From NCBI RefSeq assembly GCF_004328665.1, contig NZ_CP019770.1:2728001-2792000 (forward strand): a stretch of DNA of 64,000 nucleotides. The letters are read 5' to 3'. The notes beneath the pieces were generated by a model. That model was not told where the DNA came from and made no database searches. It worked only from the letters and a program-made list of their open reading frames with translations. Positions 5,810-60,809 of the stretch are shown here, one piece after another (positions within the stretch are counted from its first letter, which is position 1; each line of letters starts with the position of its first letter). The position numbers and the translations under genes are program-made. The DNA comes from Pseudoalteromonas sp. DL-6 (GTDB lineage: Bacteria; Pseudomonadota; Gammaproteobacteria; Enterobacterales; Alteromonadaceae).

Positions 5810-5835
5810 GGTCTGTTGACCTTTGTGAATTAAAT
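5809..5835. repeat. Relic of the AGGGTCTGTTGACC repeat
   Basis: Only one end of the dispersed element remains: AGGTCTGTTGACCTTTGTG followed by AATTAAA, differing from full copies by few substitutions. It overlaps the stop codon of the BON gene, with a TA just before the end as in the full copies. Confidence 0.6.
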
Positions 5836-40777: not shown

Positions 40778-40803
40778 TATTTTTAAGCACATAGCGTTAA
40801 ACT

Positions 40804-41069
40804 AGGGTCTGTTGACCTTTCAAGGTTTAATTTGCAGCAGCCTGTTTGGTATTTAGGCAAGGCAAAGCTTATGTGGTGTGGTTATTCCCCATAAATAGGC
40901 GATAACGCAGCATCAATGCCAAACAGGCGCTGCCCGAAGGGTTCTGCCTAGGGGCGATTTACTCTTTGTTGCTCGGTTTTTACTTAGCCCACTAGGTTAC
41001 AAACCTCGCGCCGCTATTAAACCGCCCCTAGTTTGAACAAATATTAATCCGCAAAGGTCAACAGACCCT
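40804..41069 (+). mobile_element. MITE-like repeat element, copy 1 (266 bp)
   Basis: A non-coding element with 17-bp terminal inverted repeats AGGGTCTGTTGACCTTT and AAAGGTCAACAGACCCT. Internal inverted repeats GCAGCAGCCTGTTTGG/CCAAACAGGCGCTGC (40834-40933) and CTAGGGGCGATTTA/TAAACCGCCCCTAG (40948-41031) predict two long stem-loops. It fills most of the 373-base gap between tolC and the lpxL-like gene. It is about 93% identical to copy 2 by hand count (19 differences in 266). No open reading frame inside. Confidence 0.85.
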
Positions 41070-41097
41070 TGCCTTTTATTTTTAGAGAAAAATTTTT

Positions 41098-42021
41098 GTG
41101 GTTAACTCATCCCCTTTTAAAGCTTCTTTTTTAGGTCCTCGTTACTGGCTAACCTGGATTGGTGTTTTGTTTTTATATCTTATTTCATGGTTACCACAAA
41201 AACTACAATTAGCTATGGGTAAGCAGCTCGGACGCTTGGTTTATAAGTATATGAAACGCAGAAGGCACATTGCTGAGGTTAATATTAAGCACTGCTTTCC
41301 AACAATGAGCGAAGCCGAGCAACAACAGCTGGTACTTAAGAACATGGAAAATACTGGTATTGCAATGGTTGAAACCGGTATGGCTTGGTGGTGGCCACAG
41401 TGGCGGGTCAAAAAAGTATTGGGATCACTAAAAGGACTTGAACATTTTGAGCGCGTACAACAATCAGGAAAAGGCGTTTTATTACTTGTTCCACATATAC
41501 TTCACCTTGAAATGGCAAGCCGCGTAATGGGATTGAAGTGCCAAGGTATTGGTTTTTATCGCCCACATAATAACCCGCTTATGGAATATTTTACCACCAA
41601 TGGACGCCTTCGATCTAACGAGTACATGGTTGGTAAAAAAGATGTTAAAGGACTATTGAAAGCATTAAAAAATAAAAAAGTTTGTTATTACTTACCTGAT
41701 CAAGATTATGGCCGTAACCGTTGTGAATTTGTGCCTTTTTACGCAGTTCCCGACACAGCAACGACCACTGGCACACTGATGTTTGCGGGTAGTAAAAACT
41801 GCGAAACAATGAGCCTAATTACTCGTCGTGATGAGAAAGGCCAATATCATTTAGAAATCGTGCCTGAGCTTGAGCACTTTCCAAGCGGTGATGATAAAGC
41901 CGATGTAAGGCGTGTTAATAAGCGCATGGAACAATCAATAAATGCAGCCCCTGAACAGTATATGTGGCTACATAGACGTTTTAAAACGCGCCCCAATAAA
42001 GACGCCCCGTCTTTTTATTAA
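41098..42021 (+). CDS. lpxL: LpxL-type lipid A acyltransferase
   Basis: A 307-residue lipid A late acyltransferase adding a secondary acyl chain from acyl-ACP to Kdo2-lipid IVA at the inner membrane. It has an N-terminal anchor (WLTWIGVLFLYLISWLP), RRRHIAEVNIKHCFP (about 55-69), the catalytic HILHLE (HX4E, near 133-138) and YYLPDQDYG. The start is GTG at 41098 with a weak site. Only 28 bases separate it from the repeat element, so the promoter probably lies within that element. Whether it is LpxL or LpxP cannot be told. Confidence 0.88.
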   Translation: MVNSSPFKASFLGPRYWLTWIGVLFLYLISWLPQKLQLAMGKQLGRLVYKYMKRRRHIAEVNIKHCFPTMSEAEQQQLVLKNMENTGIAMVETGMAWWWPQWRVKKVLGSLKGLEHFERVQQSGKGVLLLVPHILHLEMASRVMGLKCQGIGFYRPHNNPLMEYFTTNGRLRSNEYMVGKKDVKGLLKALKNKKVCYYLPDQDYGRNRCEFVPFYAVPDTATTTGTLMFAGSKNCETMSLITRRDEKGQYHLEIVPELEHFPSGDDKADVRRVNKRMEQSINAAPEQYMWLHRRFKTRPNKDAPSFY

Positions 42022-42058
42022 AGATGGGTTATTAAAATAACAAAGATGAGTGACAGCC

Positions 42059-42631
42059 ATGTGGTTTTGGATTAGATACATACTTTTAGCCTTATTGTTA
42101 ATTGGTGCAGCCATTTACTTTTTACTAAATGGTACGTCGTCACTTAATTATCAACAAACCACTAACGCGGCAGCTGAAGGGTTGTCTCGTTTTTATGCGT
42201 CAATTCGCGATAAAATTAGCGTTAATAAAGATAACGAAAAATTTGTAATTGAACTTGAGAAACCCGATCTTAGTCTCGATAGAGCACTGAACCAACGCTC
42301 TTTTGTAGTAGAGCCTATGCCTTTGAATTGGAGTGGAGAAGTAGGGCCTCGTCGCTTTCAACGTGACTCAACCTTACGTACTGTACTAACTCAATATGCG
42401 AATAACGAAGGGGTTACTTTAATGTGGTACTTAGACAAAGATTACGTTGTTAAAGATCACTTTCGCATAGATAGCAGTTTTAACTCCGCTTTATACCGCG
42501 TTAGCCGCTCTATAAATGATGATTTTTCAAATGAGGTGTATGCGTTTTTCTGCCCTAAACAACGTGCAGCGGTCATTACCGAGCTACCGTCTGAATTTGT
42601 ACGTACAAACTGTTTAAAGCTAAGTAATTAA
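42059..42631 (+). CDS. Membrane-anchored protein with TcpQ-like C-terminus
   Basis: About 190 residues with one N-terminal transmembrane segment (WIRYILLALLLIGAAIYFLL), then a basic linker and a C-terminal segment (PLNWSGEVGPRRFQRDSTLRTVLTQYANNEGVTLMWYLDKDYVVKDHFRIDSSFNSALYRVSRSI) resembling TcpQ/PilL_N-type domains that act in pilus or secretin assembly. It lies 37 bases after the lpxL-like gene. ATG 42059 has GAG at good spacing. No pilus genes adjoin it, so its partner is unknown. Bracketed with lpxL by the two repeats. Confidence 0.62.
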   Translation: MWFWIRYILLALLLIGAAIYFLLNGTSSLNYQQTTNAAAEGLSRFYASIRDKISVNKDNEKFVIELEKPDLSLDRALNQRSFVVEPMPLNWSGEVGPRRFQRDSTLRTVLTQYANNEGVTLMWYLDKDYVVKDHFRIDSSFNSALYRVSRSINDDFSNEVYAFFCPKQRAAVITELPSEFVRTNCLKLSN

Positions 42632-42633
42632 CT

Positions 42634-42899
42634 AGGGTCTGTTGACCTTTCAAGGTTGAATTTGCAGCAGTCTGTTTGGTATTTAGGCAAGGCAGAGCCT
42701 ATGAAGTGTGGTTATTCCCCATAAATAGGCGATAACGTGGAATAAATGCCAAACAGGCGCTGCCCGAAGGGTTCTGCCTAGGGGCAATTAACTCTTTGTT
42801 GCTCGATTCTTACTTAGCCCACTAGGTTACAAACCTCGCGCCGCGATTAAATTGCCCCTAGTTTGAACAAATATCAATCCGCAAAGTTCAACAGACCCT
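42634..42899 (+). mobile_element. MITE-like repeat element, copy 2 (266 bp)
   Basis: The same length, terminal inverted repeats and internal palindromes as copy 1, in the same orientation. It starts four bases after the stop codon of the TcpQ-like gene and fills most of the 313-base gap before the glnE stop. One base of the right terminal repeat has changed (AAAGTTCAACAGACCCT). Confidence 0.85.
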
Positions 42900-42907
42900 T
42901 GGCTTTA

Positions 42908-42935
42908 TAGGCGCTCAATAATAATCGAGCGCCTA
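42908..42935 (-). terminator. Hairpin after glnE
   Basis: TAGGCGCTC, loop, GAGCGCCTA. It has a strong nine-base stem but no T-run, so it is a weak or Rho-assisted terminator candidate. Confidence 0.4.
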
Positions 42936-42944
42936 CGTATTTAT

Positions 42945-45743
42945 TCAATTTAATTCAAAAATAGCCTGCCATATCGACGTTACATTTTTAATATCTTCAC
43001 TAAAATCTTCACGTTTTACGCAGCGACCTTGCTGATCTAGGCTCAACACATGATAGCGTGAACGATAATCTATATAGGCTTTAATAAGTTGCTGTTTTTG
43101 TGTGTCTGTAATGCAACCAATTTTAGCCGCGTCCGTTAAAATTCTGACATTGTCAGAATTATCGCATAAATGGGTAAACTCATGAGCGTGCTTTAATACT
43201 AAGTATTGAGTCATAAACTCAATATCAGTCATCGCCCCCACGTCTTGTTTTAAATCAAACTGCTGCTCGTTGCCTTTGGCTAAATGACCACGCATTTTTT
43301 CGCGCATTTTAATTACGTCGGTTTTTAGCAGTTCAACATCACGTTTTTGACACAATATCTCGGCGCGAATTTGTGCAAAGCGCGTCACTAGTTCAGTTTG
43401 GCCTAAAATTAACCTCGCCCTTACTAAAGCTTGATGTTCCCACGTCCACGCTTGGGTTTGTTGATAATGATTAAAACTCTCTAAGTTAATCGCTAATAAC
43501 CCTGATGCGCCCTCTGGACGAAGGCGAGTGTCTAATTCATATAAAATACCTGAGGCTGTACGAGTATTAAATAAGTGCATTAACCGCTGCGCTAGCTTTA
43601 AATAAAACTGCCTTGAGTCAATTGCCTTGTCGCCGCTGGTATAGCTGGTACCGTCATGGTTATGGACAAAAACTAAATCGAGGTCAGAATCATAGCCCAC
43701 CTCAAAACCGCCGGTTTTTCCATACGCAATAACAGCAAAGCCTTTATGTTCATCGTCAGTATTAGGTGGCATGCCAAAACGTTTAACACAATGATACCAA
43801 GCAATATTAACAGCCTGATCAACTATTGCTTCTGCAAGTGCAGTTAAGTGATCGCTTACTTTCATCACATCAATAACACCAGTGGCATCTGCGGCGGCAA
43901 TCCGTAACTGATGGGTTTGTTTAAACTGACGTAATGCTTCCATTTGTTGTTCAAGATCGTCATGTTCAATACGTAAAAAATACTGTCTTATTTCATCTTT
44001 GTACGCTGTTAATGGGGTCGGTTTATATAGTACTGCAGGGTCAATAAGTTCATCGAGCAAAATGGGGTACAATGAAATATGCTCACCAATCCACTTGCTA
44101 TGGCAGCAGAGCAAAACTAACTGTTTTAACGTTCCAGGGTTTTCATACAACAGCTCTAAATATGCGGTTCGCGAAATAATTTTATTTAATATTTGGCATA
44201 CCGTTGTAAATGCACTGGCACTGGCATTAAAGTCGTTTAATTGTTTGAGCAATGCAGGCATTAATTTATCAAGAATATCGCGTCCACGATTACCCACTTT
44301 GGCTTTAGATAGCCGTTGTTTAAAGTCATTTAATGGTGTTTGCCACTCATCTCTGGGATCATTTAAAAAGCTAACATCGCCATGATCCCAAGTACTTATA
44401 AACGCGCCTTCACAGGTATCAAGTGGTTCGGTTTCTTCACCAATTACCTGAATAAACTCATTATGAATTTGCGCCATTACCTGCTCTATTTTCTCAATAG
44501 CTGAGCCAAAATCACCTTGGTTCAATAACACATTCAACCGTTGCTGATTTAGCTCATCATCAGGCAGAGTTTGTGTTTGCTGATCATTAAAAATTTGCAG
44601 GTATTGCTCTACCCTACGTAAATAAAGGTAGTTATTTTTAAGCCCGCTGGCCTCATGTTCATCAATCACTTGGCTAACTGTTAGCTGCTCTAATGCAGTT
44701 AATAAAGATTGTGTTTGTAAGTTAGCTTCTCTGCCGCCTCTGACCATTTGCAATGCTTGAACAATAAATTCAACTTCGCGAATGCCGCCACCGCCTAATT
44801 TAATATTATTAGTTAAGCGCTTACGACGCACTTCTTGGGCAATCATGAGTTTCATTTTTCTAAGCGATTCAATCACTGAAAAATCAATATAACGGCGATA
44901 TACAAAAGGCCTCAGCAAGGTATTAAACTCCTGCCAATAAATGTTAGGCGTGCCAATTAAGCGCCCTTTTAACATCGCGTAGCGCTCCCAATCACGTCCT
45001 TGCTCTTGGTAGTAATCTTCAATGGCATTAAAGCTCATCACCAACGGGCCACTTTCACCAAATGGGCGCAGGCGCATATCAACCCGAAATACTTGGCCAT
45101 CTACGGTGCATTGGTTCAGTGCTGTAATTAGCTTTTGAGCCACTTTAGTATAAAAAACAGATGCTTCGAGCGAGCGACGTCCCCCTTGGGTTTTAACGTT
45201 GCGGGGGTATGCAAAAATAAGGTCTATATCAGATGAGTAATTGAGTTCTTGCCCACCTAACTTCCCCATGCCTAGTACCATTAATGGTAAAGAATTTTTG
45301 TCTTCATCTAATGGTTCACCATTAGTTTTAGCAACATTTTTGTAGGCCCATTGGTTGGCACTATCTATAAGTTTATTAGCTAGTTCACTAATGTATTTAA
45401 TACTATCCGCGATTGAGTTTTCACAACACAAGTCTAAAAATGCGACTTTTAGCCAGTATTTTTCGCGATATTGGCGCAGTAATTGATGACATTGCTGCTC
45501 TTCTACTTCATTTATATTAAGCGTTGCAAAGGGATCTGAAATTTCTCTATTGTTAATTTCAACGTCGCATAGCAACCAAGATAACAGCGAAGGTTGAGAA
45601 CTTAAGCTGCGCCAAGCAAAATCACTTAACGCTAATAAACGCACGATTTGCTGCTGGATTTGTTGTTCGGGATACAGCGCGGCAAAACGCGTTTCACCCA
45701 GTTTTTGTAATTCAATAGGAAGCTGCGTGTCGTTACTCATCAA
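42945..45743 (-). CDS. glnE: GlnE bifunctional glutamine synthetase adenylyltransferase/deadenylylase
   Basis: A 932-residue enzyme adjusting glutamine synthetase activity to nitrogen supply, signalled by PII proteins. The N-terminal deadenylylase nucleotidyltransferase domain has YSSDIDLIFAYP (about 169-180) and the C-terminal adenylylase domain has YDSDLDLVFVHN (about 677-688); both keep the DxD metal site. GGGGIREVEFIVQALQMVRGG is conserved between them. Two ATGs start the frame. It is full length. Confidence 0.95.
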   Translation of the reverse strand: MMSNDTQLPIELQKLGETRFAALYPEQQIQQQIVRLLALSDFAWRSLSSQPSLLSWLLCDVEINNREISDPFATLNINEVEEQQCHQLLRQYREKYWLKVAFLDLCCENSIADSIKYISELANKLIDSANQWAYKNVAKTNGEPLDEDKNSLPLMVLGMGKLGGQELNYSSDIDLIFAYPRNVKTQGGRRSLEASVFYTKVAQKLITALNQCTVDGQVFRVDMRLRPFGESGPLVMSFNAIEDYYQEQGRDWERYAMLKGRLIGTPNIYWQEFNTLLRPFVYRRYIDFSVIESLRKMKLMIAQEVRRKRLTNNIKLGGGGIREVEFIVQALQMVRGGREANLQTQSLLTALEQLTVSQVIDEHEASGLKNNYLYLRRVEQYLQIFNDQQTQTLPDDELNQQRLNVLLNQGDFGSAIEKIEQVMAQIHNEFIQVIGEETEPLDTCEGAFISTWDHGDVSFLNDPRDEWQTPLNDFKQRLSKAKVGNRGRDILDKLMPALLKQLNDFNASASAFTTVCQILNKIISRTAYLELLYENPGTLKQLVLLCCHSKWIGEHISLYPILLDELIDPAVLYKPTPLTAYKDEIRQYFLRIEHDDLEQQMEALRQFKQTHQLRIAAADATGVIDVMKVSDHLTALAEAIVDQAVNIAWYHCVKRFGMPPNTDDEHKGFAVIAYGKTGGFEVGYDSDLDLVFVHNHDGTSYTSGDKAIDSRQFYLKLAQRLMHLFNTRTASGILYELDTRLRPEGASGLLAINLESFNHYQQTQAWTWEHQALVRARLILGQTELVTRFAQIRAEILCQKRDVELLKTDVIKMREKMRGHLAKGNEQQFDLKQDVGAMTDIEFMTQYLVLKHAHEFTHLCDNSDNVRILTDAAKIGCITDTQKQQLIKAYIDYRSRYHVLSLDQQGRCVKREDFSEDIKNVTSIWQAIFELN

Positions 45744-45818
45744 TACCCTCTTTTATCTCACCAATAACCATACTAGAATGGTTAAAAACCTATCAAGGTA
45801 AATCTATTTAGGAACACC

Positions 45819-46712
45819 ATGTCATACTTGTCATTATCTAACACTAGTTTAGTTGCGATTGCTATTAGTTTTGTGGTTATTTGTATCATTATCATTAGTT
45901 TAAGAATTGTTACTCAAATAAAAGCAAAACAAGCACTTAAAGAAGAATTAGCGCAACATGATAACTTTGCAATGGGGATTAGTTTTGCCTCTGAAATATC
46001 AGTAGTGATCGCCACGATGGCATTTTTGTTTGATGAAATAAGTATTAGCACGGCTCAATCAAATCCACTAAAAGTCATTTTATTAATTGTGCTGTTATTT
46101 TCGTTTATAAAAATGGGGCATTTAATCCATCGTAAATGGATATTACGCCGCTTTAATGAAGAAGCTGCCATATTAAAACAAAACGTTTGTGCGGCGCTGG
46201 TTGATTCAGGGATGCTGATTGCTAACTGTATTTTAGTACTGGGTTTGTATACGTGGACACACACTCAGGGCTTTAGTAATTTATTAATAGCCTCAGTAAG
46301 CTTTTTTGTTTTACAAGGCCTATTTGCCCTAGACAGTAAAATACGCGAAAACCGCTTTGCTAAAGCCAATCAAGGGGCTTCGTTGCAAAGTAACTTTGGT
46401 TTAGAAAATACCTCAATTGGTATTCGCTATGCGGGTAAGTCAATAGGCTTGGCACTTGCCGCGTATGCTGGTTTATCAAGTGCGGCGTTTCAAAACGGTA
46501 AAATGGTAGAAAACTTATTTACTTTGGTAATGCATTGCGGTGTGATGTGGCTATTACTATACTGTTTAACGTATATAATAAAAATTATCTCAATGCCAAA
46601 TATCGATACCGCACTTGAAGTCGATCATCAGGATAATATTGGCATTGCCTGTATTGAATTTGCTGTATTTTGTGCTATTGGTTACTTATTGATAAGTATG
46701 TTTTCAATTTAG
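45819..46712 (+). CDS. DUF350 family integral membrane protein
   Basis: A 297-residue protein with about eight hydrophobic segments arranged in repeated units, each starting with an amphipathic pattern: DNFAMGISFASEISVVIATMAF, ENTSIGIRYAGKSIGLALAAYAGL and DNIGIACIEFAVFCAIGYLL. This duplicated pattern resembles DUF350 (YjfL) proteins. Function unknown; a role in membrane or metal stress is only a guess from relatives. The next gene may be cotranscribed, 78 bases on. Confidence 0.68.
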   Translation: MSYLSLSNTSLVAIAISFVVICIIIISLRIVTQIKAKQALKEELAQHDNFAMGISFASEISVVIATMAFLFDEISISTAQSNPLKVILLIVLLFSFIKMGHLIHRKWILRRFNEEAAILKQNVCAALVDSGMLIANCILVLGLYTWTHTQGFSNLLIASVSFFVLQGLFALDSKIRENRFAKANQGASLQSNFGLENTSIGIRYAGKSIGLALAAYAGLSSAAFQNGKMVENLFTLVMHCGVMWLLLYCLTYIIKIISMPNIDTALEVDHQDNIGIACIEFAVFCAIGYLLISMFSI

Positions 46713-46790
46713 TACCAAACACGTTAAATTTAGCCGTTGCTAAACGTCCCTATTTAATTGTTTGGTAAAATTAACAGGGACTTTAGGCAT

Positions 46791-47264
46791 ATGGCAATTA
46801 AAACAGGAAGTTATCTATTAATTGATATAGATAACGAGTTCAGCCGATCATTTGTAAAACAGTATATTAATACCAATGATGCTGCTAAAAAAGACATTGT
46901 AATAGCCGGTGCGAATACGCAAAAGCTAGTTAAAATGATGTTTGATGAACTCGTTAAAGATTATTGCTATTGCGATATTGAGAACGAAATCAGTATTTCA
47001 GAGCTCGCCAGCTACCTCCACGAACACCACAATGTTCAAGGCGTGTTATTTAATCAAACAGATTATTTGCTCGCCGATGATAAACAACGCTTTATTTATA
47101 ATTCATTACATGAAAAACGCTATATTATCAGTCAAACCAATCATGGTTATGACATTAAGCCTATAAATGAAGAGTGTCATTCAAATCATTTGTCCTGTCA
47201 TACCGATATAGCTCAAACCGCACAAGCGCTAGCTGAGCTTGCTGCCCCTGAATCTGAAAAATAA
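46791..47264 (+). CDS. Hypothetical protein, Rossmann-like N-terminus
   Basis: A 157-residue protein I do not recognise. It begins with a hydrophobic strand and acidic turn (SYLLIDIDNEFSRSFVKQYI), then a second strand (KKDIVIAGANTQKLVKMMF) and helix-rich segments, a pattern that could be a truncated Rossmann fold. Later it has VQGVLFNQTDYLL and a histidine/cysteine-rich stretch near 130-140 (EECHSNHLSCHTD). ATG 46791 has AGGGA about 11 bases upstream; an earlier in-frame start adds 11 residues. It precedes rsmE. Confidence 0.6.
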   Translation: MAIKTGSYLLIDIDNEFSRSFVKQYINTNDAAKKDIVIAGANTQKLVKMMFDELVKDYCYCDIENEISISELASYLHEHHNVQGVLFNQTDYLLADDKQRFIYNSLHEKRYIISQTNHGYDIKPINEECHSNHLSCHTDIAQTAQALAELAAPESEK

Positions 47265-47334
47265 ATAATTGCACCCAAGCCTTTGCTTACTTACCATAGA
47301 GGGATATAACTTCTATGTAAAAAAGTGATTTGCC

Positions 47335-48069
47335 ATGCGAGTGCCTCATATTTATCAATCATCTGCGATTGCTGTTAATACCCCTTTAAGCCTTGACGAT
47401 GATGCTGCAGGGCACATAGGTCGAGTGTTGCGCATGAAAGTGGGCGAACAGGTTTCTATTTTTAACGGTGAAGGCGGAGAATTCCTCAGTGAAATTATTG
47501 AGGTAAGTAAAAAGAGCGTGGTTGTTATGCCGCTTGAATTTAACTCTCATGACGTTGAATCACCATTAAAAATTCATTTAGGCCAGTGCGTATCTCGTGG
47601 TGATAAAATGGACTTTACCATTCAAAAGTCGGTTGAATTAGGGATCACTGAAATCACCCCTATTTTTAGCCAGCGCTGTGGCGTAAAACTAAGTGGCGAC
47701 CGCTTAGAAAAAAAACACCAGCAATGGCAAAAAATAGCGATTGCCGCAGCAGAGCAATCTGGGCGCAACTTTGTGCCAACAGTACACTCTCCCGTTGATT
47801 TAAAAAGCTGGCTTGAACAGCAAACAGCTGCCATTAAATTAACTTTGCATCCTCGCGCCGAACACAGTATTAAAACCATTACCATTCCCGATGACGGCGT
47901 ACGCTTTTTAGTAGGGCCGGAAGGCGGATTTACTGACGATGAAATAGCGCAAACAAAACAACAAGCGTTTGTAGATATTCGCTTAGGCCCGCGCGTTCTT
48001 CGCACAGAAACAGCGGCATTAACCGTTTTAAGCGCACTACAATTACAATTTGGCGATTTAGCTAATTGA
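47335..48069 (+). CDS. rsmE: RsmE 16S rRNA m3U1498 methyltransferase
   Basis: A 244-residue SPOUT methyltransferase. The N-terminal PUA-like domain (MRVPHIYQSSAIAV...) is followed by the knot with QKSVELGITEITPIFSQRCGVK (about 98-119), AAEQSGRNFVPTVH, FLVGPEGGFTDDEI (about 196-209) and LGPRVLRTETAALTVLSALQ. It is first of the conserved rsmE-gshB-yqgE-ruvX cluster. Confidence 0.94.
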   Translation: MRVPHIYQSSAIAVNTPLSLDDDAAGHIGRVLRMKVGEQVSIFNGEGGEFLSEIIEVSKKSVVVMPLEFNSHDVESPLKIHLGQCVSRGDKMDFTIQKSVELGITEITPIFSQRCGVKLSGDRLEKKHQQWQKIAIAAAEQSGRNFVPTVHSPVDLKSWLEQQTAAIKLTLHPRAEHSIKTITIPDDGVRFLVGPEGGFTDDEIAQTKQQAFVDIRLGPRVLRTETAALTVLSALQLQFGDLAN

Positions 48070-48135
48070 AATAACTAAAAGCACCCACATATCAAGGTTA
48101 CAGTTGTAAAAAACACATAAATTAAGGCACAGCGC

Positions 48136-49086: not shown

Positions 49087-49214
49087 TATTAAAGCCATAC
49101 CAAACTTTGAGCGGTGGCGCTTCTATAATCACCGCTTAAAGTTGAATAAATTTTTAGTGTTAAAACATGGGACTATGCCATACTCAAGATTCAATAACTA
49201 AAAGGGTAAAAATT

Positions 49215-49772
49215 ATGCAGTCATTAGAAAATCACTTTTTAATCGCAATGCCATCAATGCAAGACCCTTTTTTTAAACGTGCTGTCACTTATATTTGTGA
49301 ACACAATGAAGAAGGCGCTATGGGACTTGTTATCAATCAACCGATTGATGTTACCGTAGGTGAATTACTCGATAAGATTGATATTGACAACGATAAGTCT
49401 CAACATGCTGCGCAAGTGACAGTGTATGCTGGTGGGCCAGTTAAAACTGATCGTGGTTTTGTGCTACATTCACCAAAACCTGGGTACTCGGCAAGCCAAA
49501 AGCTGAGCAGTGATATTATGATCACCACCTCAAAAGATGTGTTAGCCACGTTAACTACCGCCCAAGCACCCGAACAATTTATAATTACCTTAGGTTACTC
49601 TGGTTGGGAGCAAGGCCAATTAGAGCAAGAACTACTTGATAATAGTTGGCTAATTATAAAAGCCGACCCTAAAATAATTTTTGATACTCCCGTAGAAAAA
49701 CGCTGGGAAATGGCAGTTTCTATGCTTGGTTTTGATATTGGCCAACTAAGCCCAGAAGCTGGACATGCTTAG
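49215..49772 (+). CDS. yqgE: YqgE/AlgH family protein
   Basis: A 185-residue UPF0301 protein. LENHFLIAMPSMQDPFFKRAVTYICEHNEEGAMGLVINQP, VYAGGPVKTDRGFVLHS, LGYSGWEQGQLEQELLDNSW and the terminal AGHA are typical of the family; relatives influence alginate production in Pseudomonas, but the molecular role is unclear. ATG 49215 (AAGGG upstream) is chosen over a frame extension of 16 residues. The TAG stop is completed by the first base of the repeat element. Confidence 0.9.
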   Translation: MQSLENHFLIAMPSMQDPFFKRAVTYICEHNEEGAMGLVINQPIDVTVGELLDKIDIDNDKSQHAAQVTVYAGGPVKTDRGFVLHSPKPGYSASQKLSSDIMITTSKDVLATLTTAQAPEQFIITLGYSGWEQGQLEQELLDNSWLIIKADPKIIFDTPVEKRWEMAVSMLGFDIGQLSPEAGHA

Positions 49773-49871
49773 GGTCTGTTGACCTTTGCGGATTAAAATT
49801 TGTTCAAACTAGGGGCGGTTTAATCGCGGCGCGAAGTTTGTAACCTAGTGGGCTAAGTAAAAACAGACCCT
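49771..49871 (-). mobile_element. Deleted copy of the MITE-like repeat (101 bp)
   Basis: Copy 3 begins AGGGTCTGTTGACCTTTGCGGATTAA, then the CTAGGGGCGGTTTAATCGCGG palindrome arm, and jumps from the TAAGTAAAAA point to the outer ACAGACCCT, losing about 165 internal bases. It is flanked by TA on both sides. It lies between yqgE and ruvX and is probably transcribed through. Confidence 0.78.
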
Positions 49872-49890
49872 AATAACATAAAAGATAAAC

Positions 49891-50340
49891 ATGACTAAAA
49901 AAACTCTAAAACCGCAGGGTGAACGCACTGTAATGGGATTTGACTTTGGTACTAAGAGTATTGGTATTGCAATTGGTCAAGAATTGACAGGCAGCGCCAC
50001 CAGCTTAAAAGCGGTGAAAGCTCAAGATGGCATCCCTAATTGGGATGACATTGCTGTGCAGGTAAAAGAGTGGCAACCTGATTTAATGGTGGTTGGCCTA
50101 CCGCTTAATATGGATGGCACCTCACAAGAGGTTACATTTAAGGCTAAGAAGTTCGCCAACCGTTTGCATAACCATTACGGTATTGCGGTTCATACTCAAG
50201 ATGAGCGCCTCACGACCGCTGATGCTAAAGCACGATTGTTTGAACGTGGCGGTTATAAAAACTTAGGTAAAGGCAACGTAGATAATATGTCTGCGGTGAT
50301 CATTTTAGAGAGTTTTTTTGAAGCCAGTTATGGTGAATAA
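49891..50340 (+). CDS. ruvX: RuvX/YqgF Holliday-junction resolvase-like nuclease
   Basis: A 149-residue RNase H-fold protein. Motifs are [17 protein letters not shown] (about 14-30), [15 protein letters not shown] (about 70-84) and [14 protein letters not shown] (about 108-121). YqgF acts in 16S rRNA 5' processing and is an essential gene in E. coli. It normally follows yqgE directly; here the repeat element stands between them. A terminator follows. Confidence 0.93.
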
Positions 50341-50351
50341 ATTGATTTAAC

Positions 50352-50379
50352 AAAAAAAGCGCCTTGGGCGCTTTTTTTT
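50352..50379 (+). terminator. Rho-independent terminator after ruvX
   Basis: AAAAAAAGCGCC, TTGG, GCGCTTTTTTTT, strong stem with an eight-base T-run. Confidence 0.88.
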
Positions 50380-50394
50380 ATGCGTGGATTTACA

Positions 50395-50550
50395 CTAGGG
50401 GCAATTTAATCGCTGAGCGAGCTTTGCAGCCTAGTGGGCTCGATAACTGCTCCTGCTTTATTCTACTGGCTTACATCCAGTAAGAATAAGTAAAAACCGA
50501 GCAAAGCTTGCGCCCTGCTCACGCACCTTTACTACATCCATGTAGGCAAA
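50395..50550 (-). repeat. Degraded, rearranged copy of the repeat element
   Basis: CTAGGGGCAATTTAATCGC and CCTAGTGGGCT come from the same arm as in the full copies, and AAAACCGAGCAAAGCTT through CATGTAGG matches the 47-nt segment found only in copy 4. About 45 other bases are inserted between them. Both terminal inverted repeats are gone. It fills the gap between ruvX and pilU. Confidence 0.65.
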
Positions 50551-50553
50551 AAA

Positions 50554-51690: not shown

Positions 51691-51699
51691 AATAATTCC

Positions 51700-52740: not shown

Positions 52741-52769
52741 TTATGACTCCACAACTAACTGATAAATAT

Positions 52770-53456: not shown

Positions 53457-53473
53457 AAGGTGATAACAGACAT

Positions 53474-54295
53474 ATGTCAGATAAAAAAATCGCATTTATA
53501 GGCACAGGTAATATGAGCTACGCCATCATTGGTGGCATGGTAAAAAACGGCTTTAACGCAAACAATATTATTGCGACTAACCGCAACCAAGAAAAACTAG
53601 CTAAGGTAGCCGCGGATTTCAAAGTGCAAACCACCAGTGACAATAACGAAGCTATGCGCGATGCAGATGTCATTGTTCTGTCTGTTAAACCACAAATGAT
53701 GGGCGACTTATGCCAATCATTTCAAGATTCAGGCATCGACTTTAGTGATAAATTATTTATCTCAGTTGCTGCGGGCCTAACCGTTAAACGCTTACGTGAA
53801 ATGCTTGGCCAAGATGTGAAAATGGTGCGTTGTATGCCAAATACACCGTCGTTACTTGGCCGTGGCGTATCGGGCTTGTATGGCGCTGGCGAAACGCAAA
53901 GCGAACATGAATTTGTACAACAAGTATTTGAGTGTACCGGCATTGTAGTATGGGTAGAGCAAGAGTCACAAATAAATGACGTGATTGCTGTTACCGGCTC
54001 TTCGCCAGCTTACTTTTTCTTATTTATGGAAGCGATTGAAGAAAAAGCGAAAGCATTGGGCTTTAATGATGAAGACGCGCGTCGCTTAGTACAGCAAACA
54101 GCGCTAGGCGCAGCTGAAATGGCACTTAGCCAACCAGATATTAGCATTTCGCAACTGCGCGCCAATGTAACCTCAAAAGGCGGTACCACGCATGCAGCTG
54201 TTGAGCATTTAAAAGCGCAAGGTTTAACCCAAACTGTGGGTGATGCAATGGATGCGTGTATTGCGCGTGCAGTGCAAATGGAACAAGAACTTTAA
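53474..54295 (+). CDS. proC: Pyrroline-5-carboxylate reductase
   Basis: A 273-residue NAD(P)H-dependent reductase completing proline synthesis. The dinucleotide-binding FIGTGNMSYAIIGG (about 8-21) and the C-terminal signature VTSKGGTTHAAVEHL (about 232-246) are intact, and VRCMPNTPSLLGRGVSGLY is typical. It lies 17 bases after yggS, with AAAGGTG upstream. Confidence 0.95.
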   Translation: MSDKKIAFIGTGNMSYAIIGGMVKNGFNANNIIATNRNQEKLAKVAADFKVQTTSDNNEAMRDADVIVLSVKPQMMGDLCQSFQDSGIDFSDKLFISVAAGLTVKRLREMLGQDVKMVRCMPNTPSLLGRGVSGLYGAGETQSEHEFVQQVFECTGIVVWVEQESQINDVIAVTGSSPAYFFLFMEAIEEKAKALGFNDEDARRLVQQTALGAAEMALSQPDISISQLRANVTSKGGTTHAAVEHLKAQGLTQTVGDAMDACIARAVQMEQEL

Positions 54296-54321
54296 AACCA
54301 TTTTTTATTGAAGGTTATACT

Positions 54322-54855
54322 ATGAATGCCATGCAATTTTTAATTAGCACCTTGTTTGATCTATTTTTAATGGTGGTACTACTGCGTTTTTGGCTACAGT
54401 GGGCAAAAGCCGACTTTTACAACCCGATGAGCCAATTTGTGGTCAAAGCCACTTCGTTTGCAGTTAATCCACTGCGAAAAATCATTCCAGGGCTGGGCGG
54501 GCTTGATTTAGCCTCTTTGTTACTGGCATTTATAGTAGCGGCTGCAAAAATAAGTACATTAATGTGGCTTATTTATAGCTCTTGGGCTATTCAACCTGTA
54601 CTTATACAGGCGCTAATAACTGTTTTAAAAGAAGGTTTAAATTTAGTCTTTTGGGTGTTAATCATCCGCGCTATTTTAAGCTGGGTAAGCCAAGGCTATA
54701 ACCCAATTGAAGCGGTATTCCATCAGCTAACTGAGCCAATGTTAAAGCCAATCCGTAAAATTTTACCGCCATTGGGGGGATTAGATTTATCGGTATTGGT
54801 ACTGATTATCGGCATTCAGTTTTTACAAATGCTGCTAATGGACCTTTTAGCTTAA
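54322..54855 (+). CDS. yggT: YggT family membrane protein
   Basis: A 177-residue inner-membrane protein with two YGGT modules, each a hydrophobic helix plus the NP..PLRKIIPGLGGLDLASLLL pattern (about 50-75) and its repeat EPMLKPIRKILPPLGGLDLSVLVL (about 137-160). Relatives are linked to osmotic tolerance and cell-envelope function. AAGG precedes ATG 54322 at good spacing. A terminator follows. Confidence 0.88.
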   Translation: MNAMQFLISTLFDLFLMVVLLRFWLQWAKADFYNPMSQFVVKATSFAVNPLRKIIPGLGGLDLASLLLAFIVAAAKISTLMWLIYSSWAIQPVLIQALITVLKEGLNLVFWVLIIRAILSWVSQGYNPIEAVFHQLTEPMLKPIRKILPPLGGLDLSVLVLIIGIQFLQMLLMDLLA

Positions 54856-54867
54856 GCATAACGTAAT

Positions 54868-54894
54868 ATAAAAGAGGCCTAGCGCCTCTTTTTT
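54868..54894 (+). terminator. Rho-independent terminator after yggT
   Basis: AAAGAGGC, CTAGC, GCCTCTTTTTT, closing the yggS-proC-yggT transcript. Confidence 0.83.
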
Positions 54895-54913
54895 ATATAT
54901 TCAGGAGTTAACC

Positions 54914-55357
54914 ATGCAACGTTTAATCAAGTTTTGTTTTATTGCTTGTCTCGCTTTAGCATTTAATGCACACAGCGCTCAAGAACAAGGCGCCCAATAC
55001 AAAGAACTAGGCCCTTGGCAAGTTCATTACATAGCCTTTCCATCAACGTTTATTCAACCACAAATAGCTAAAGCCTATGACCTTGAGCGTAGTGGCTATA
55101 AAGGCATTGTTAATATTTCAATATTAAAAAATAATGCAGATAAAGCCGCTCAAAAAGCAACATTACAAGGTACCGCTAAAAACTTATTAGGTAACAAGCA
55201 AACCCTTAACTTTAAAGAAGTCGTTGAAGGCGATTCAATTTATTACCTAGCACAAGTAGATTACACCAACGAAGAGATTTTACGTTTTGAAATTGAAATC
55301 CAACAAGGTAATCAGTTTCAAACATTAAAGTTTAAGCAAAAATTTTACGTAGATTAA
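54914..55357 (+). CDS. DUF4426 exported protein
   Basis: A 147-residue protein with a signal peptide (cleavage near HSA-Q, about 22). The mature part runs [43 protein letters not shown], the DUF4426 pattern, and ends in [11 protein letters not shown]. Probably periplasmic; function unknown. It is next to rdgB in vibrios and alteromonads too, only two bases before rdgB here. Confidence 0.82.
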
Positions 55358-55359
55358 AT

Positions 55360-55959
55360 ATGACCAACACCTTAGTTCTTGCAACCGGCAACCCCGGAAA
55401 AGTGAATGAGCTGGCTAACATGCTCAGCTCACTTAATATTAATGTTGTACCGCAAAGCGACTTTAATGTCAGTGACGTAGACGAAACAGGCACCACGTTT
55501 GTAGAAAACGCGATAATTAAAGCGCGTCATGCGGCTAAAATTACCGGACTGCCTGCTATTGCAGATGATTCAGGCTTAGAAGTTGATGGCCTGAATGGCG
55601 CACCCGGTGTTTACTCTGCTCGTTTTGCAGGAAATAGCGCAAGCGATCAAGATAATATCGATAAATTACTGGCTGATTTAGGCAACAACCCTAATCGCAG
55701 CGCTCGCTTTTGGTGTGTGTTGGTACTAATGCGTCATGCCGACGACCCTACTCCACTTATTTGCAGTGCTAGCTGGGAGGGCGAAATTACCCTTAGCCAA
55801 CACGGTAAAGGTGGCTTTGGTTACGATCCTATCTTTTTTGTACCATCAGAAAATTGTACCAGTGCAGAGCTTACAAAAGAGCAGAAGAATGCACTAAGTC
55901 ACCGTGGGCAAGCACTTAATAAATTACTACAAGAGTTACAACACAAAGGCGGCCTGTGA
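55360..55959 (+). CDS. rdgB: RdgB XTP/dITP pyrophosphatase
   Basis: A 199-residue HAM1-family house-cleaning enzyme removing dITP, XTP and ITP. The N-terminal [12 protein letters not shown] (about 6-17), [24 protein letters not shown] (about 68-91) and [14 protein letters not shown] (about 148-161) are intact. It overlaps hemW by four bases, as in E. coli. Confidence 0.95.
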
Positions 55960-57092
55960 ACCTTCCTCCACTGAGTTTATATGTGCACGTGCCTTGGTGC
56001 GTGCAAAAATGCCCTTACTGCGACTTTAATAGCCACGGGCAAAAAGGTGACATCCCTGAAGCTGAATATGTACAGCACTTAATTGACGATTTAAAAGCTG
56101 ATTTACACTTAGTACAAGGGCGAAAAATTCACAGCATTTTTATTGGCGGCGGCACGCCAAGCCTATTAACCGGCGCGGCATACACCCGTTTACTCAATGA
56201 AGTAGATAGCCTCATAGGCCTAGCCGATAACTGTGAAATAACCCTTGAAGCAAACCCCGGCACAGTCGAAACTGGCCGTTTTAAAGATTATGTAAAAGCA
56301 GGGATTAACCGTATCTCTATTGGCGTGCAAAGCATGCAAAATGATAAGTTAAAAGCCTTAGGCCGAATTCATGGTGCCGATGAGGCCTGTTATGCAGCAC
56401 AACAAGCTAGTGAAGCAGGGTTGAATAGCTTTAACCTTGATTTAATGCATGGCTTACCAGGGCAATCCCTCAATGACGCACTAAGTGATTTAAAACAAAT
56501 TATTGCCCTGAGCCCACCACATATTTCTTGGTATCAGCTCACCATTGAGCCTAATACGCAATTTGCTTCAAAACCGCCCACGTTGCCACAAGATGAAACC
56601 TTATGGGATATTCAAGAACAAGGCCAAGCATTATTAGCACAAGCAGGCTATCAGCAATACGAAATATCAGGATATGCAAAACCGGGCTTTCAATGCCAAC
56701 ATAACTTGAATTATTGGCGGTTTGGCGATTATCTTGGTATTGGCTGTGGCGCCCATGGTAAGGTTACTGATTCGAAAACGGGGGTGATAACACGCACTGA
56801 AAAGGTTAAACACCCACGGGGCTACATGGACATTATTAAGCCCTACTTATACAAAAGCTGGCAAGTAGAACAAGACGACTTAGCGTTTGAGTTTTTTATG
56901 AATCGCTTTCGTTTAACAGAGCCATGTCCGATTGAAGACTACAGTGCACTGACTAATCAGCCATTACAAAGCCAACAAGCGGCTTTAAATAAAGCTATTA
57001 ACACAGGTTTATTAATAGAAAAAGACGGCCATTGGCAAGTAAGCCTTAAAGGCCATCGCTTTTTAAATGACCTGCTAGAATTGTTCGTATAA
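55956..57092 (+). CDS. hemW: HemW radical SAM heme chaperone
   Basis: A 378-residue radical SAM protein binding heme and delivering it to apo-enzymes; formerly labelled anaerobic coproporphyrinogen oxidase. The cluster cysteines are C15, C19 and C22 ([13 protein letters not shown]), without the additional residues of true HemN. GGGTPSLL is near 67-74 and the C-terminal HemN-type domain (about 300-370) is present. Confidence 0.93.
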
Positions 57093-57176
57093 CGCTTTTG
57101 GCGTTATGCGCATGTAAAGTAAATACATGAAAAATTAAAATACCCTAATGGGTTTCTAACAACAAAAGGGAAACGA

Positions 57177-59009
57177 ATGCGTAAACTTACTCTAATTGCT
57201 GCCACGGTAAGCGTGGCACTGCTTGCAGGTTGCCAACAAGCAACACAACAATCAACGCCTGCACCTGCGGTTCAAGCTCAACCTGTACAAAGTGAAATTG
57301 ATAAAGCGAATGCTTTTTTTGAAGACACTTTTGATCGTGATGTAATGAGCAGCCCAGTTTATCAAACCTACATGGGCATCAAAAAAGATTACGATAAATG
57401 GGATGACAACAGCGAAGAAAAAGCGCTTAAAGACTTGGCACAAACTAAAGCCGATTTGGTCACGCTCAACAGCATTGACCGTGCGCAATTAGATGCAGCT
57501 ACTCAAGTAAGTTATGATTTAAAAAAACAAGATTTAGAAGCTAGCATTGCTGATTTTAAATGGCGTTACCATAACTACCCAGTAAACCAAATGTTTGGTA
57601 CGCACTCTATGGTGCCGGCTTTTTTAATTAACCAGCATCAAATTAGCAACGTAAAAGAAGCAAACGATTATATTGCTCGTTTAAATGGCGTGCCGGGTGT
57701 ATTTGATCAACTTATTACCGGCTTAGAAATTCGCGCCGATAAAAACATCATCGCGCCTAAATTTGTATTTCCACACGTGATTGATTCAAGCAAAAACATC
57801 ATTAAAGGTGCGCCGTTTGAACAAGGTGAAGATTCTACGCTATTAGCTGACTTTAAACGTAAAGTAAATGCATTAGAAATCGACCAAGCTGAAAAAGATG
57901 CACTTATTAGTAAAGCGACTGATGCATTAAAAACAGCAGTTAAACCTGCTTACTCTAAGTTAATTAACTACATTGCACAGCTAGAAAAGCGTGCTGATGA
58001 CCGTGACGGTGCTTGGAAATTCCCTGATGGCGAAGCGTTTTACAATAACGCGCTTAAACGCACTACCACGACAGACCTTACAGCAAAAGAAATTCATGCC
58101 ATTGGCCTTGCCGAAGTGTCACGTATTCATGATGAAATGCGTGCCATCAAAGATAAAGTTGGCTTTGAGGGTGACTTAAACGCCTTTATGCAGTTTATGA
58201 AAACCGACAAGCAATTTTACCTTGCTAATACTGAAGCGGGTAAAGCGCAGTACCTAAGTGAAGCTAAAGGCTTAATTGATAACATGAAAACACGCTTAGA
58301 TGAGCTGTTTATTGTAAAGCCAAAAGCCGACATGATAGTAAAACGTGTTGAAGCTTTCCGTGAAAAAGCGGCGGGTAAAGCGTTTTATCAACAACCTGCG
58401 CCAGATGGTTCACGCCCAGGTATTTACTACGCCAACCTCTATGACATGGAAGCAATGCCAACTTACCAAATGGAAGCTCTCGCTTATCATGAGGGTATTC
58501 CGGGTCATCACATGCAAATTGCTATTTCACAAGAATTAGAAGGCGTGCCTAAGTTCCGTAAGTTTGGTGGTTACACAGCCTACATTGAAGGTTGGGGTTT
58601 ATACTCAGAGTTACTACCAAAAGAAATGGGCCTTTACGAAGACCCGTATTCAGATTTTGGTCGTTTAGCTATGGAGTTATGGCGCGCCTGTCGTCTAGTG
58701 GTTGATACCGGTATTCACGCAATGAAGTGGACTCGCCAAGAAGGTATTGATTACTACGTTAACAATACTCCTAACGCCACTTCTGACGGTGTGAAAATGG
58801 TTGAACGTCATATTGTAATGCCATCACAAGCAACGGCTTACAAAGTGGGTATGCTGAAAATTTTAGAACTACGTGAAGCAGCTAAAAAGCAGCTTGGCGA
58901 CAAGTTTGATATTCGTCAGTTCCACGACGTAGTGCTTAAAAATGGCCCTGTACCATTGAACGTACTAGAAAACTTTGTTGATGAGTGGGTTGCTAGCAAA
59001 CAAGCTTAA
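57177..59009 (+). CDS. DUF885 family lipoprotein, likely zinc metallopeptidase
   Basis: A 610-residue protein with a lipobox LLAGC (C19), so probably membrane-anchored. The DUF885 zinc site is AYHEGIPGHHMQIA (HExxH-like, about 440-453), followed by YIEGWGLYSELLPKEMGLYEDPYSDFGRLAMELWRACRLVVDTGIH. Such proteins are probable carboxypeptidase-like enzymes; the substrate is unknown. A Gln/Ala/Pro-rich linker follows the lipid cysteine. It lies 84 bases after hemW. Confidence 0.86.
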   Translation: MRKLTLIAATVSVALLAGCQQATQQSTPAPAVQAQPVQSEIDKANAFFEDTFDRDVMSSPVYQTYMGIKKDYDKWDDNSEEKALKDLAQTKADLVTLNSIDRAQLDAATQVSYDLKKQDLEASIADFKWRYHNYPVNQMFGTHSMVPAFLINQHQISNVKEANDYIARLNGVPGVFDQLITGLEIRADKNIIAPKFVFPHVIDSSKNIIKGAPFEQGEDSTLLADFKRKVNALEIDQAEKDALISKATDALKTAVKPAYSKLINYIAQLEKRADDRDGAWKFPDGEAFYNNALKRTTTTDLTAKEIHAIGLAEVSRIHDEMRAIKDKVGFEGDLNAFMQFMKTDKQFYLANTEAGKAQYLSEAKGLIDNMKTRLDELFIVKPKADMIVKRVEAFREKAAGKAFYQQPAPDGSRPGIYYANLYDMEAMPTYQMEALAYHEGIPGHHMQIAISQELEGVPKFRKFGGYTAYIEGWGLYSELLPKEMGLYEDPYSDFGRLAMELWRACRLVVDTGIHAMKWTRQEGIDYYVNNTPNATSDGVKMVERHIVMPSQATAYKVGMLKILELREAAKKQLGDKFDIRQFHDVVLKNGPVPLNVLENFVDEWVASKQA

Positions 59010-59033
59010 TTTTTAAGTATTTACTTAAAGGTA

Positions 59034-59060
59034 TAAAAGGTCGCAATTGCGGCCTTTTGT
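59034..59060 (+). terminator. Rho-independent terminator after the DUF885 gene
   Basis: AAAAGGTCGCAA, TTGCGGCCTTTTG; a perfect-ended stem with T-run 25 bases beyond the stop. Confidence 0.8.
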
Positions 59061-59113
59061 TTTATAAAGCAAAAAATTAAGCTAGGATAAAGTAGGTATT
59101 CAAGGAGAACAGA

Positions 59114-59773
59114 ATGGATCTAAGCATACAGCTACTCAATGCGCGTATTAAACAACAACAGTTTGATGAGCTTGATAACGACTTTAAAAAGCTCACTGAC
59201 GCACAACAAGTGATGCAGCTTAATTACCTGTTTGAGAGCGCGTTACGCATGAGTATTAAATACGATTTTATGCAAAACATTGCCGTGCGAATTTTAGCGA
59301 GCAATACGCCACCAGCGCTGTTTATTGAACAGCTAACCAGTTTAGATGCATTGAGCTTTTTTACCCCTGCGCTTAAATTAAATAAAGGCTTTATCAGTAC
59401 AGATAAGCACGGCAATAACGTGTTGCATAATGTGTTTAAGCACGCAGCGCCGAGCCAATTGCCTTTTAACTATGTTCGCTCGTTAATGTTATTTGAATCG
59501 AATGAAGAGTTACTGCATGCATTGGCGCAAACCAATCAGCACGGGCTGACTCCGGTGGCCAATTATATCGCTTATGCACATAAGCCCAACATACCGGTAA
59601 AACATGAGTTTTCTGCCTTACTGGCATTAATGGAAATAGAACAAAAACAAAATCCTACGGCAAAATTACAATTGCTTGAGGCATTAAAAAATAACCCCCC
59701 AAGCGACATAACCTTGCTGCTAAGCGCCGCTTATTTACAGCGCTCTACTGAGCAAATAGCGGCACTAGTCTGA
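59114..59773 (+). CDS. Hypothetical protein with ankyrin-like segments
   Basis: A 219-residue, mostly alpha-helical cytoplasmic protein I cannot assign to a family. Two stretches look like ankyrin-repeat turns: STDKHGNNVLHNVFKH (about 95-110) and QTNQHGLTPVANYIAYAH (about 139-156). No signal peptide or membrane segment. AAGGAG lies at good spacing before the ATG. Its end overlaps the convergent SIMPL gene by nine bases. Confidence 0.68.
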   Translation: MDLSIQLLNARIKQQQFDELDNDFKKLTDAQQVMQLNYLFESALRMSIKYDFMQNIAVRILASNTPPALFIEQLTSLDALSFFTPALKLNKGFISTDKHGNNVLHNVFKHAAPSQLPFNYVRSLMLFESNEELLHALAQTNQHGLTPVANYIAYAHKPNIPVKHEFSALLALMEIEQKQNPTAKLQLLEALKNNPPSDITLLLSAAYLQRSTEQIAALV

Positions 59774-60481
59774 TAAGTAATATTCTACGCTGGTAACCAC
59801 GCGAACATTTTTAATTTGCGGTGTGTTTGAATCCCGATCGCTAATGCTAAATTGCCCCTGGCGTGCGGTTTTAATTTTACCTAATAGGGAGTTTGAATCT
59901 TTCGCGAATTTATTTGCTACTTCACGGGCTTTTTCTGTGGCCTCTTGTACCATGGCAGGTTTTATATCGTTAAGCCCAGTAAATAGATATTCGATACGGG
60001 TTTGATAGTTATCTTGCACTATGGCTATATTTTGCTTAGCTAACTGGCTCACTTTACTCAGTGCGTTTTTAACTTTATCAGGGGCATTAGAGTACACAAT
60101 AATATTTGAGCTAATAACATACCTAAATTTTTGGTTGTCGTTCGCGTATTCACGCGCTTGCTTATCAATAATAGATTGAGTGCCTGTCGATATTTCTTCA
60201 TCGTCAAAGCCATGTAACTTTAAAAAGGCAATTACGGCATCGTTTTTTTGCTCAACTCGCTCAACTAGCTGCTCAAGGTTGTTATCGGCATCATTAAACT
60301 GCAGCGGCCAAATAACAGTATCAGCGACCACTTCACGCTCTGCTAAACCTTTTACCTGAACTGTACGCTCCATACCTTTAATATCAAGCGCGGCTCCTTT
60401 TATAATAAAGCCCAATGCAATTAAGCCGATGCTTAAACAAACTGCTGCCATAACAACGGTTACATTCGATATTTTATTCAC
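59765..60481 (-). CDS. SIMPL domain (DUF541) exported protein
   Basis: A 238-residue protein with an N-terminal hydrophobic segment (about 8-28; signal or anchor) and a SIMPL domain: RTVQVKGLAEREVVADTVIWPLQF, ATEKAREVANKFAKDSNSLLGKIKTARQGQFSI and a VTSVEYYLSD end. Periplasmic SIMPL proteins have been tied to oxidative stress and membrane organisation. The start is GTG with AGGAG seven bases upstream. Only 16 bases separate it from the repeat element, so its promoter probably lies in the element. Confidence 0.82.
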   Translation of the reverse strand: MNKISNVTVVMAAVCLSIGLIALGFIIKGAALDIKGMERTVQVKGLAEREVVADTVIWPLQFNDADNNLEQLVERVEQKNDAVIAFLKLHGFDDEEISTGTQSIIDKQAREYANDNQKFRYVISSNIIVYSNAPDKVKNALSKVSQLAKQNIAIVQDNYQTRIEYLFTGLNDIKPAMVQEATEKAREVANKFAKDSNSLLGKIKTARQGQFSISDRDSNTPQIKNVRVVTSVEYYLSD

Positions 60482-60497
60482 TTCACTCTCCTTGATT

Positions 60498-60809
60498 AGG
60501 GTCTGTTGACCTTTGCGGATTAAAACTTGTTCAAACTAGGGGCGATTTAATCGCGGCGCGAGGTTTGTAACCTATGGGCTAAGTAAAAACCGAGCAAAGC
60601 TTCCGCGTCCTGCTCACGCCCCTTACCTACATCCATGTAGGCAACAAAGAGTAAATCGCCCCTAGGCAGAACCCTTCGGGCAGCGCCTGTTTGGCATTTA
60701 TGCTGCGTTATCGCCTATTTATGGGGAATAACCACACCACATAGGCTCTGCCTTGCCTAAATACCAAACAGACTGCTGCAAGTTTAACCTTGAAAGGTCA
60801 ACAGACCCT
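60498..60809 (-). mobile_element. MITE-like repeat element, copy 4 (312 bp)
   Basis: The longest copy, in the opposite orientation to copies 1 and 2. Both 17-bp ends are intact and TA lies on each side. It carries an extra 47-nt segment (60595-60641, including palindrome CTACATCCATGTAG) missing from copies 1 and 2 and present in the relic at 50395. It occupies most of the 426-base gap between the SIMPL gene and the Pat-like gene. Confidence 0.85.

Follow-up and report, generated by a model that had tools for sequence, protein, structure and literature searches.

Miniature inverted-repeat transposable elements (MITEs) are generally regarded as passive remnants that arise by deletion from insertion sequences (IS). 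The Correia elements of Neisseria and the enterobacterial repetitive intergenic consensus (ERIC) sequences of enterobacteria are small palindromic intergenic repeats like the element described here. They differ from it in sequence, length and host, a separation made from their general properties and not by alignment. Copy numbers of ERIC are given in a passage of PMC10969869, and the main text of PMC11109978 presents 250 mobile/repeat sequence candidates (MRSC), one of which, MRSC-65-2, is a single long stem found in diverse phyla. The present family of repeats is found in a 64,000 nt stretch of Pseudoalteromonas sp. DL-6 (NZ_CP019770.1, positions 2,728,001–2,792,000), hereafter the window. 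The repeats are read here as MITEs that are moved in trans by ISSod6-type transposases (IS5 family) and that have a folded body with a lineage of its own; the probability of this reading is put at roughly 0.8.

The window has three full-length copies and one 99-bp derivative of a unit that consists of GGGTCTG...CAGACCC with a TA on each side. Copy 1 (positions 40805–41068, plus strand) and copy 2 (42635–42898, plus strand) are 264 bp and copy 4 (60499–60808, minus strand) is 310 bp, measured from GGG to CCC. Copy 3 (49772–49870, minus strand) is internally deleted, with one half retained plus a short right end, and is located about 20 bp upstream of an ATG at 49891. A sequence-only reading of the window had located the four copies, but its coordinates for copies 1, 2 and 4 included one base too many at each end (part of the TA where this is intact). 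Its flanks are as it gave them: TA is on both sides of copies 3 and 4, and copies 1 and 2 have TA on the left and TT on the right (in copy 1, TA at 40803–40804 and TT at 41069–41070). The repeat family is real. The 16-bp end, at three or fewer mismatches, occurs eight times in the window compared with 0.30 expected from shuffled sequences; these matches represent the three full-length elements, one end of copy 3 and a single decayed end at 5809. Between copies 1 and 2 there are 19 differences in 264 positions (~7%, derived from the alignment score), and the family is indeed not entirely recent.

In the whole genome (G000, 3.9 Mb in two contigs, C1 and C2) the ends, first described as 17 bp long, are found 46 times at one mismatch or less (24 forward, 22 reverse), and a control pattern read backwards is found once. 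BLAST with copy 4 gives 27 matches, 20 of them full length (261–361 bp): thirteen are 261–267 bp, six are 310–313 bp and one is 361 bp. The longer forms hold one or two hairpin modules of ~47–49 bp. The longest open run has a median of 25–41 codons depending on frame and a maximum of 81 (31 relatives), which bears out the absence of coding capacity that was claimed from the window. The repeats are short, multi-copy sequences with terminal inverted repeats and without coding capacity, i.e., they are MITEs. Copy 4 has no match among phage records. At C2:389032–389078 (L024) there is a 47-bp element that consists only of the two ends and is flanked by TA on either side, and a second ends-only element of 47 bp is found in the relative G050 (L045). 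These ends-only elements may represent the minimal mobile unit.

Because a close relative lacks the element at six of eight comparable sites, the repeats are mobile elements that insert at TA, preferably within YTAR, and duplicate the TA. The relative, G020, is 94–97% identical in the stretches compared, and both flanks were located for eight elements; the two remaining sites are filled. Four of the six empty sites show a single TA, one shows CA and one TTAA. The sites of window copies 1, 3 and 4 are empty in G020 (with one TA for copy 3 and CA replacing the TA for copy 4), and copy 2 is common to both genomes. Six more relatives likewise have an empty copy 1 site with one TA: CTAG is present in five, obtained from 12 loci of which the remaining seven gave no row, and CTAT in G010. 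Since the empty sites in relatives carry TA, the TT to the right of copy 1 is best explained as a TA that has decayed. Neither copy 2 nor the relics gave a clean empty site. Among 53 MITE rows from this and other genomes, a few of them degenerate and a few orthologous, TA is found on both sides in 28. A pyrimidine precedes the left TA in 33 of 35 cases and a purine follows the right TA in 36 of 40. The comparison of filled and empty sites thus agrees with the earlier proposal of a non-autonomous element that targets and duplicates TA.

The positions of the copies also bear on a possible use by the host, i.e., that hosts have recruited the element as a terminator or as a hairpin for mRNA stability and retain it for this purpose. 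Most copies are intergenic and several are at the very end of an open reading frame (ORF): 3 of 24 elements have a long ORF across the joined site, in each case within ~110 bp of the ORF end, and the others are between ORFs. The ORFs were called mechanically, and the orientation of four fragments is rough. A host function of this kind is nevertheless quite unlikely. The flanking ORFs of the 21 copies without a spanning ORF show no consistent orientation relative to the element (+/+ 7, -/- 6, -/+ 5, +/- 3), and sites vary between close relatives, as the six empty sites in G020 show. At locus L054 (G091) a copy adjoins a repeated tRNA gene array with seven tRNA matches.

Secondary structure modeling of the ~264-nt body shows a branched fold. 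The ends would pair to form a terminal stem, and there are a subterminal stem and two long hairpins, in whose internal loops some positions are invariant. In copy 1 the left terminal inverted repeat (helix 1) is at 40805–40820 (plus strand) and the right one at 41053–41068 (minus strand). Conserved hairpin 1 is at 40834–40933 and conserved hairpin 2 at 40941–41038 (both plus strand), which represent columns 30–130 and 138–237 of alignment A1. A1 is a MAFFT alignment, not structure-fitted, of 21 of the 31 elements of 261–265 bp known at that stage. Of its 88 pairs, 42 have two-sided changes that maintain the pairing. The cells are 95.5% paired compared with 35.5–42.6% in slid controls, and there are 134 two-sided changes versus 31.7 after shuffling. 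In 19 of the 21 comparisons between seven lineages, at 58–67% identity, 17–23 of 73 interior pairs are changed on both sides; 13–20 of these two-sided changes keep the pairing, and one-sided changes are fewer (4–14). One-sided changes are commoner in the two closer lineage comparisons (83% and 87%).

Alignment A3 has 31 elements from more genera, nine of them from the earlier set and 22 from the 29 loci L225–L253. Here 51 of 83 predicted pairs show two-sided change. The fold from A1, transferred to A3 by hand, has 91.8% of cells paired and 253 two-sided changes, versus 78.0 in shuffled and 39–85 in slid controls; helix 11 is misplaced in this transfer and is 50% paired. In a background-corrected covariation test of 68 elements, pairs of the fold represent 18 of the top 20 column pairs by covariation and 27 of the top 40, with the fold making up 0.25% of all column pairs. 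The 68 elements (39 earlier ones plus 29 full-length elements from named-genome loci) have an effective number of 16.6, and the test is not independent, as the fold comes from the subset A3 and most elements were found with the model. Rfam 15 gives no match on the copies in window positions 40000–62000 at E up to 1, nor on elements of six relatives at E up to 0.1.

The copies within the DL-6 genome behave differently from the lineages. In thirteen copies compared with their consensus, 47 pair changes are one-sided and 10 are two-sided; of 139 substitutions, 71 are within the 176 paired columns (266 columns in all). As the copies in this genome decay while lineages keep the pairing, we read this as selection on source copies, with the individual copies decaying and the spreading lineages keeping the fold. 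The other explanation is that the fold is a by-product of templated repair between inverted-repeat arms, by which changes in one arm are copied to the other without selection. Inverted repeats make up the stems, and templated repair is known for quasi-palindromes. There is also no clear strand preference, whether judged by folding or by G-U versus A-C pairs: 41 of 52 and 25 of 31 elements fold better on the plus strand, and the consensus RNAalifold energy favors the minus strand (-82.1, versus -79.3 for the plus strand). Unpaired interior columns are, taken overall, less conserved than paired ones (0.60 versus 0.68), and the columns at least 93% conserved are 31 of 101 unpaired and 61 of 134 paired; this does not favor sequence-specific loops in general and is a point against a selected body as well as one for repair. 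Yet 17 unpaired interior positions are invariant across the seven lineages, near-invariant runs such as ACAAGGC and CTTTGTT persist despite the loop variability, and the best model matches listed stay 262–265 nt long. The changes are mostly one-sided within the genome and mostly two-sided in 19 of 21 lineage comparisons, although this contrast is also partly expected from divergence alone. Repair without selection is considered rather unlikely on this evidence, and selection on source copies is preferred. The fold would then be kept since it is useful to the element itself, whether in a transcript or in single-stranded DNA, e.g., because it keeps the two ends close to each other.

A covariance model of the full element, R1, was built from A1. 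Copy 1, which is itself among the sequences of the model, scores 297 bits. At E 1e-5, R1 has matches in at least 137 of 394 genomes and at least 40 of 114 genera of the order, these being lower bounds with five candidates scored per genome. In addition to the 262–265 nt of the best matches listed, longer (~310 and 360) and shorter forms occur. A deeper search of 15 genomes shows 6 to 121 matches in each; elements tend to match on both strands (eight matches for four elements), and element counts are about half of these numbers. The 18-bp string of TA plus end is present, among the matches listed, in Vibrio, Grimontia, Enterovibrio, Photobacterium, Psychromonas, Oceanisphaera, Shewanella, Colwellia, Thalassotalea, Algicola, Ferrimonas and Alkalimonas, and also in Pseudomonas sp. 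G34 and a metagenome-assembled genome of Methylophaga. Of 80 named-genome loci among the matches listed (L254–L333), 59 have an R1 match at E 1e-10 and 21 have none. The 21, which include Pseudomonas sp. G34, have exact TA-plus-end strings and are possibly solo ends or short derivatives. The body is thus predicted to have the same fold in many, mostly marine, bacterial genera, a feature beyond the reach of the sequence-only reading. Since the fold is kept over genus-level divergence, the element, although a MITE, is anciently structured and has apparently followed an evolutionary course of its own.

The IS with such ends are of the ISSod6 type. Their transposase is of the IS5 family (NCBIfam NF033580, 258 bits with a cut-off of 110; Pfam PF13340/PF01609), and the elements are ~880 bp (about 832–886 bp), with one ORF in the intact IS. 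PF13340 has matches in 16 of 98 genomes, at loci with ends such as GGGGCTGTTGATCTTT and GGGCGTGTTGATCTTT and mostly with TA on both sides. With the G032 transposase as query, 24 of 108 genomes of the genus have matches, and 30 fetched loci show 13 end pairs, several from the same genome. The ISSod6 transposase matches 32 of 394 genomes of the order at E 1e-40. Among 34 ISSod6-type loci (30 from genomes of the order and four from plasmids) there are 21 end pairs. All 21 have TA on both sides, with YTA in 19 and TAR in 20. The end pattern allowed two mismatches, i.e., the ends were selected for likeness to the query and the flanks were not; the flanks, and not empty sites, suggest that these IS duplicate TA. 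The likeness extends beyond the 16-mer in many, but not all, of the IS and MITEs, where one end continues with a CRAG-like sequence and the other with a GCNG-like sequence; copy 1, for example, has CAAG/GCGG. An IS with the same ends thus does exist, and it is of the IS5 family. Both the MITE and an ISSod6-type transposase are present in other genomes, e.g., G032, G103, G314 and the HL-AS2 record.

At three loci a MITE-type element adjoins the IS with one TA between them: L194 (1146–2291) and L221 (1246–2347), both in G032, and L200 (1404–2554) in G103. The adjoining element in L221 is short and diverged (79 bits). At L031:1501–1938 two MITEs abut with a single TA in common. Element ends may be favored targets, since CCC-TA ends make good YTAR sites, and this would perhaps explain the abutting of IS and MITE.

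According to the proposed mechanism, the transposase would bind the ~16–20-bp ends, insert the element at TA within YTAR and duplicate the TA. As the DL-6 genome has no ISSod6-type transposase match, the helper would have to come and go. The repeats most likely use an enzyme of a known kind of IS, and we infer from sequence comparison which transposase acted here. Several observations weigh against this reading. The genome itself has no match to PF13340 or to the G032 and ISSod6 transposases, and PF13340 has no match in the MITE-rich relatives G002, G005, G020, G048 and G050. The element is found in 14 of 32 genomes with the transposase versus 123 of 362 without it, from lists matched by eye, and the difference is not significant (Fisher p 0.33). 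No IS was found with exactly GGGTCTGTTGACCTTT at both ends, none of the 80 named-genome loci has an IS-sized end pair, and the first 50 kb of the ISSod6-bearing megaplasmid have no R1 match. As for the TA, it is absent from both sides in four of the 20 full-length copies (nine have it on both sides and seven on one), and two of the six empty sites deviate at the dinucleotide (the CA and TTAA noted above). If the helper assignment is right, the MITEs outlast the IS or travel without it.

Nine genomes of genus g58 (family f27) have ISSod6-type transposase matches and are absent from the list of element matches, in contrast to MITE-rich Pseudoalteromonas genomes without a transposase match. The PF01609 genes of the DL-6 genome, five decayed fragments at C1 2.56–2.59 Mb and two 473-codon copies, were rejected as helpers; tblastn shows no similarity between them and the IS5 transposase, and no end pair of theirs matches. 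Five DDE_Tnp_1 matches, most of them stop-broken or partial, are within ~22 kb at C1:2563928–2586052, which is probably a degraded mobile island.

The sequence-only reading had instead proposed a Tc1/mariner/IS630-like helper. Duplication of TA is typical of the IS630/Tc1-mariner superfamily, and PF13358 (IS630) has matches in 23 of 60 genomes examined. However, IS5-family elements exist with MITE-like ends and YTAR sites, the DL-6 genome has no PF13358 match, and 30 fetched IS630 loci, a part of the PF13358 matches listed from the 60 genomes, show no end pair that matches convincingly. A MITE of that superfamily is most improbable and the IS630 helper is rejected in favor of the ISSod6-type one.

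Other features of the family are the optional modules and the relics. Copy 4 contains a 47-bp hairpin module at 60594–60640, identified by alignment and by presence/absence at another orthologous filled site. This site is C1:1802988–1803298 (L061), which is filled in both DL-6 and G020 (L160:12093–12356). The aligned part is identical, the module is present in DL-6 only, and the break is at a TTGC repeat. The breakpoints at this repeat suggest slippage deletion or gene conversion. Two relics had been proposed in the window, and both are retained with a narrower content. The one at 50395–50550 is hairpin 2 alone with both optional modules, and an orthologous, differently shortened relic is found in G020; that at 5809–5835 (plus strand) is a single decayed end only.

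In the literature on MITEs of Pseudoalteromonas and Vibrio and on structured RNA in these orders no description of the element was recognized, with the likeliest source, an older paper on Shewanella mobile elements, outside that coverage. A 13-base piece of the end occurs in one unrelated paper. The main text of PMC11109978 has no mention of Vibrio, Shewanella or Pseudoalteromonas, its supplements being outside that search. A wider proposal is that the element represents a large and apparently undescribed class of ~264-nt non-coding structured mobile elements in at least 40 genera, which parasitizes ISSod6-type transposases and needs its fold, in a transcript or in single-stranded DNA, for spread or regulation. 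This is tentative, with the odds somewhat against it in this full form. A conserved fold is unusual for DNA thought to be passive and raises the testable question of what role a folded non-coding body has for a transposon. In practical terms, the covariance model provides an annotation for many intergenic repeats of Vibrio, Shewanella, Pseudoalteromonas and their relatives, and these repeats are linked to a likely helper family.

Among known systems, ISSod6 from the megaplasmid of Shewanella oneidensis MR-1 (NC_004349) is like the MITE in its ends. It has GGGTCTGTTGATCTTT at both ends, CGAG/GCTG beyond them, and TA on both sides in the context TTA/TAA. It is unlike the MITE in having its own transposase gene, and neither its locus nor the 50 kb of plasmid has an R1 match; the 264-nt body was not recognized in any IS examined. 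The size of the ISSod6-type IS (about 832–886 bp) and the 2-bp duplication fit the IS427 group, a placement by size and duplication and not by ISfinder comparison. Elements of that group in one table of PMC3281130 are 832–865 bp with 2-bp duplications, one having 4, and often have two overlapping ORFs where the present intact IS has one. ISPsp10 of the same group duplicated TA, as stated in a passage of PMC4133298. The MRSC as presented in the main text of PMC11109978, e.g., MRSC-65-2, are alike in being multi-copy, in having a covarying structured motif and in that some instances are near a transposase gene. MRSC-65-2 is a single long stem, whereas the present element is modeled as a 264-nt fold that is branched and has IS ends as its boundaries. 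Structured mobile repeats form a recognized category, and the combination of a branched fold with IS-type ends sets the present element apart within it.

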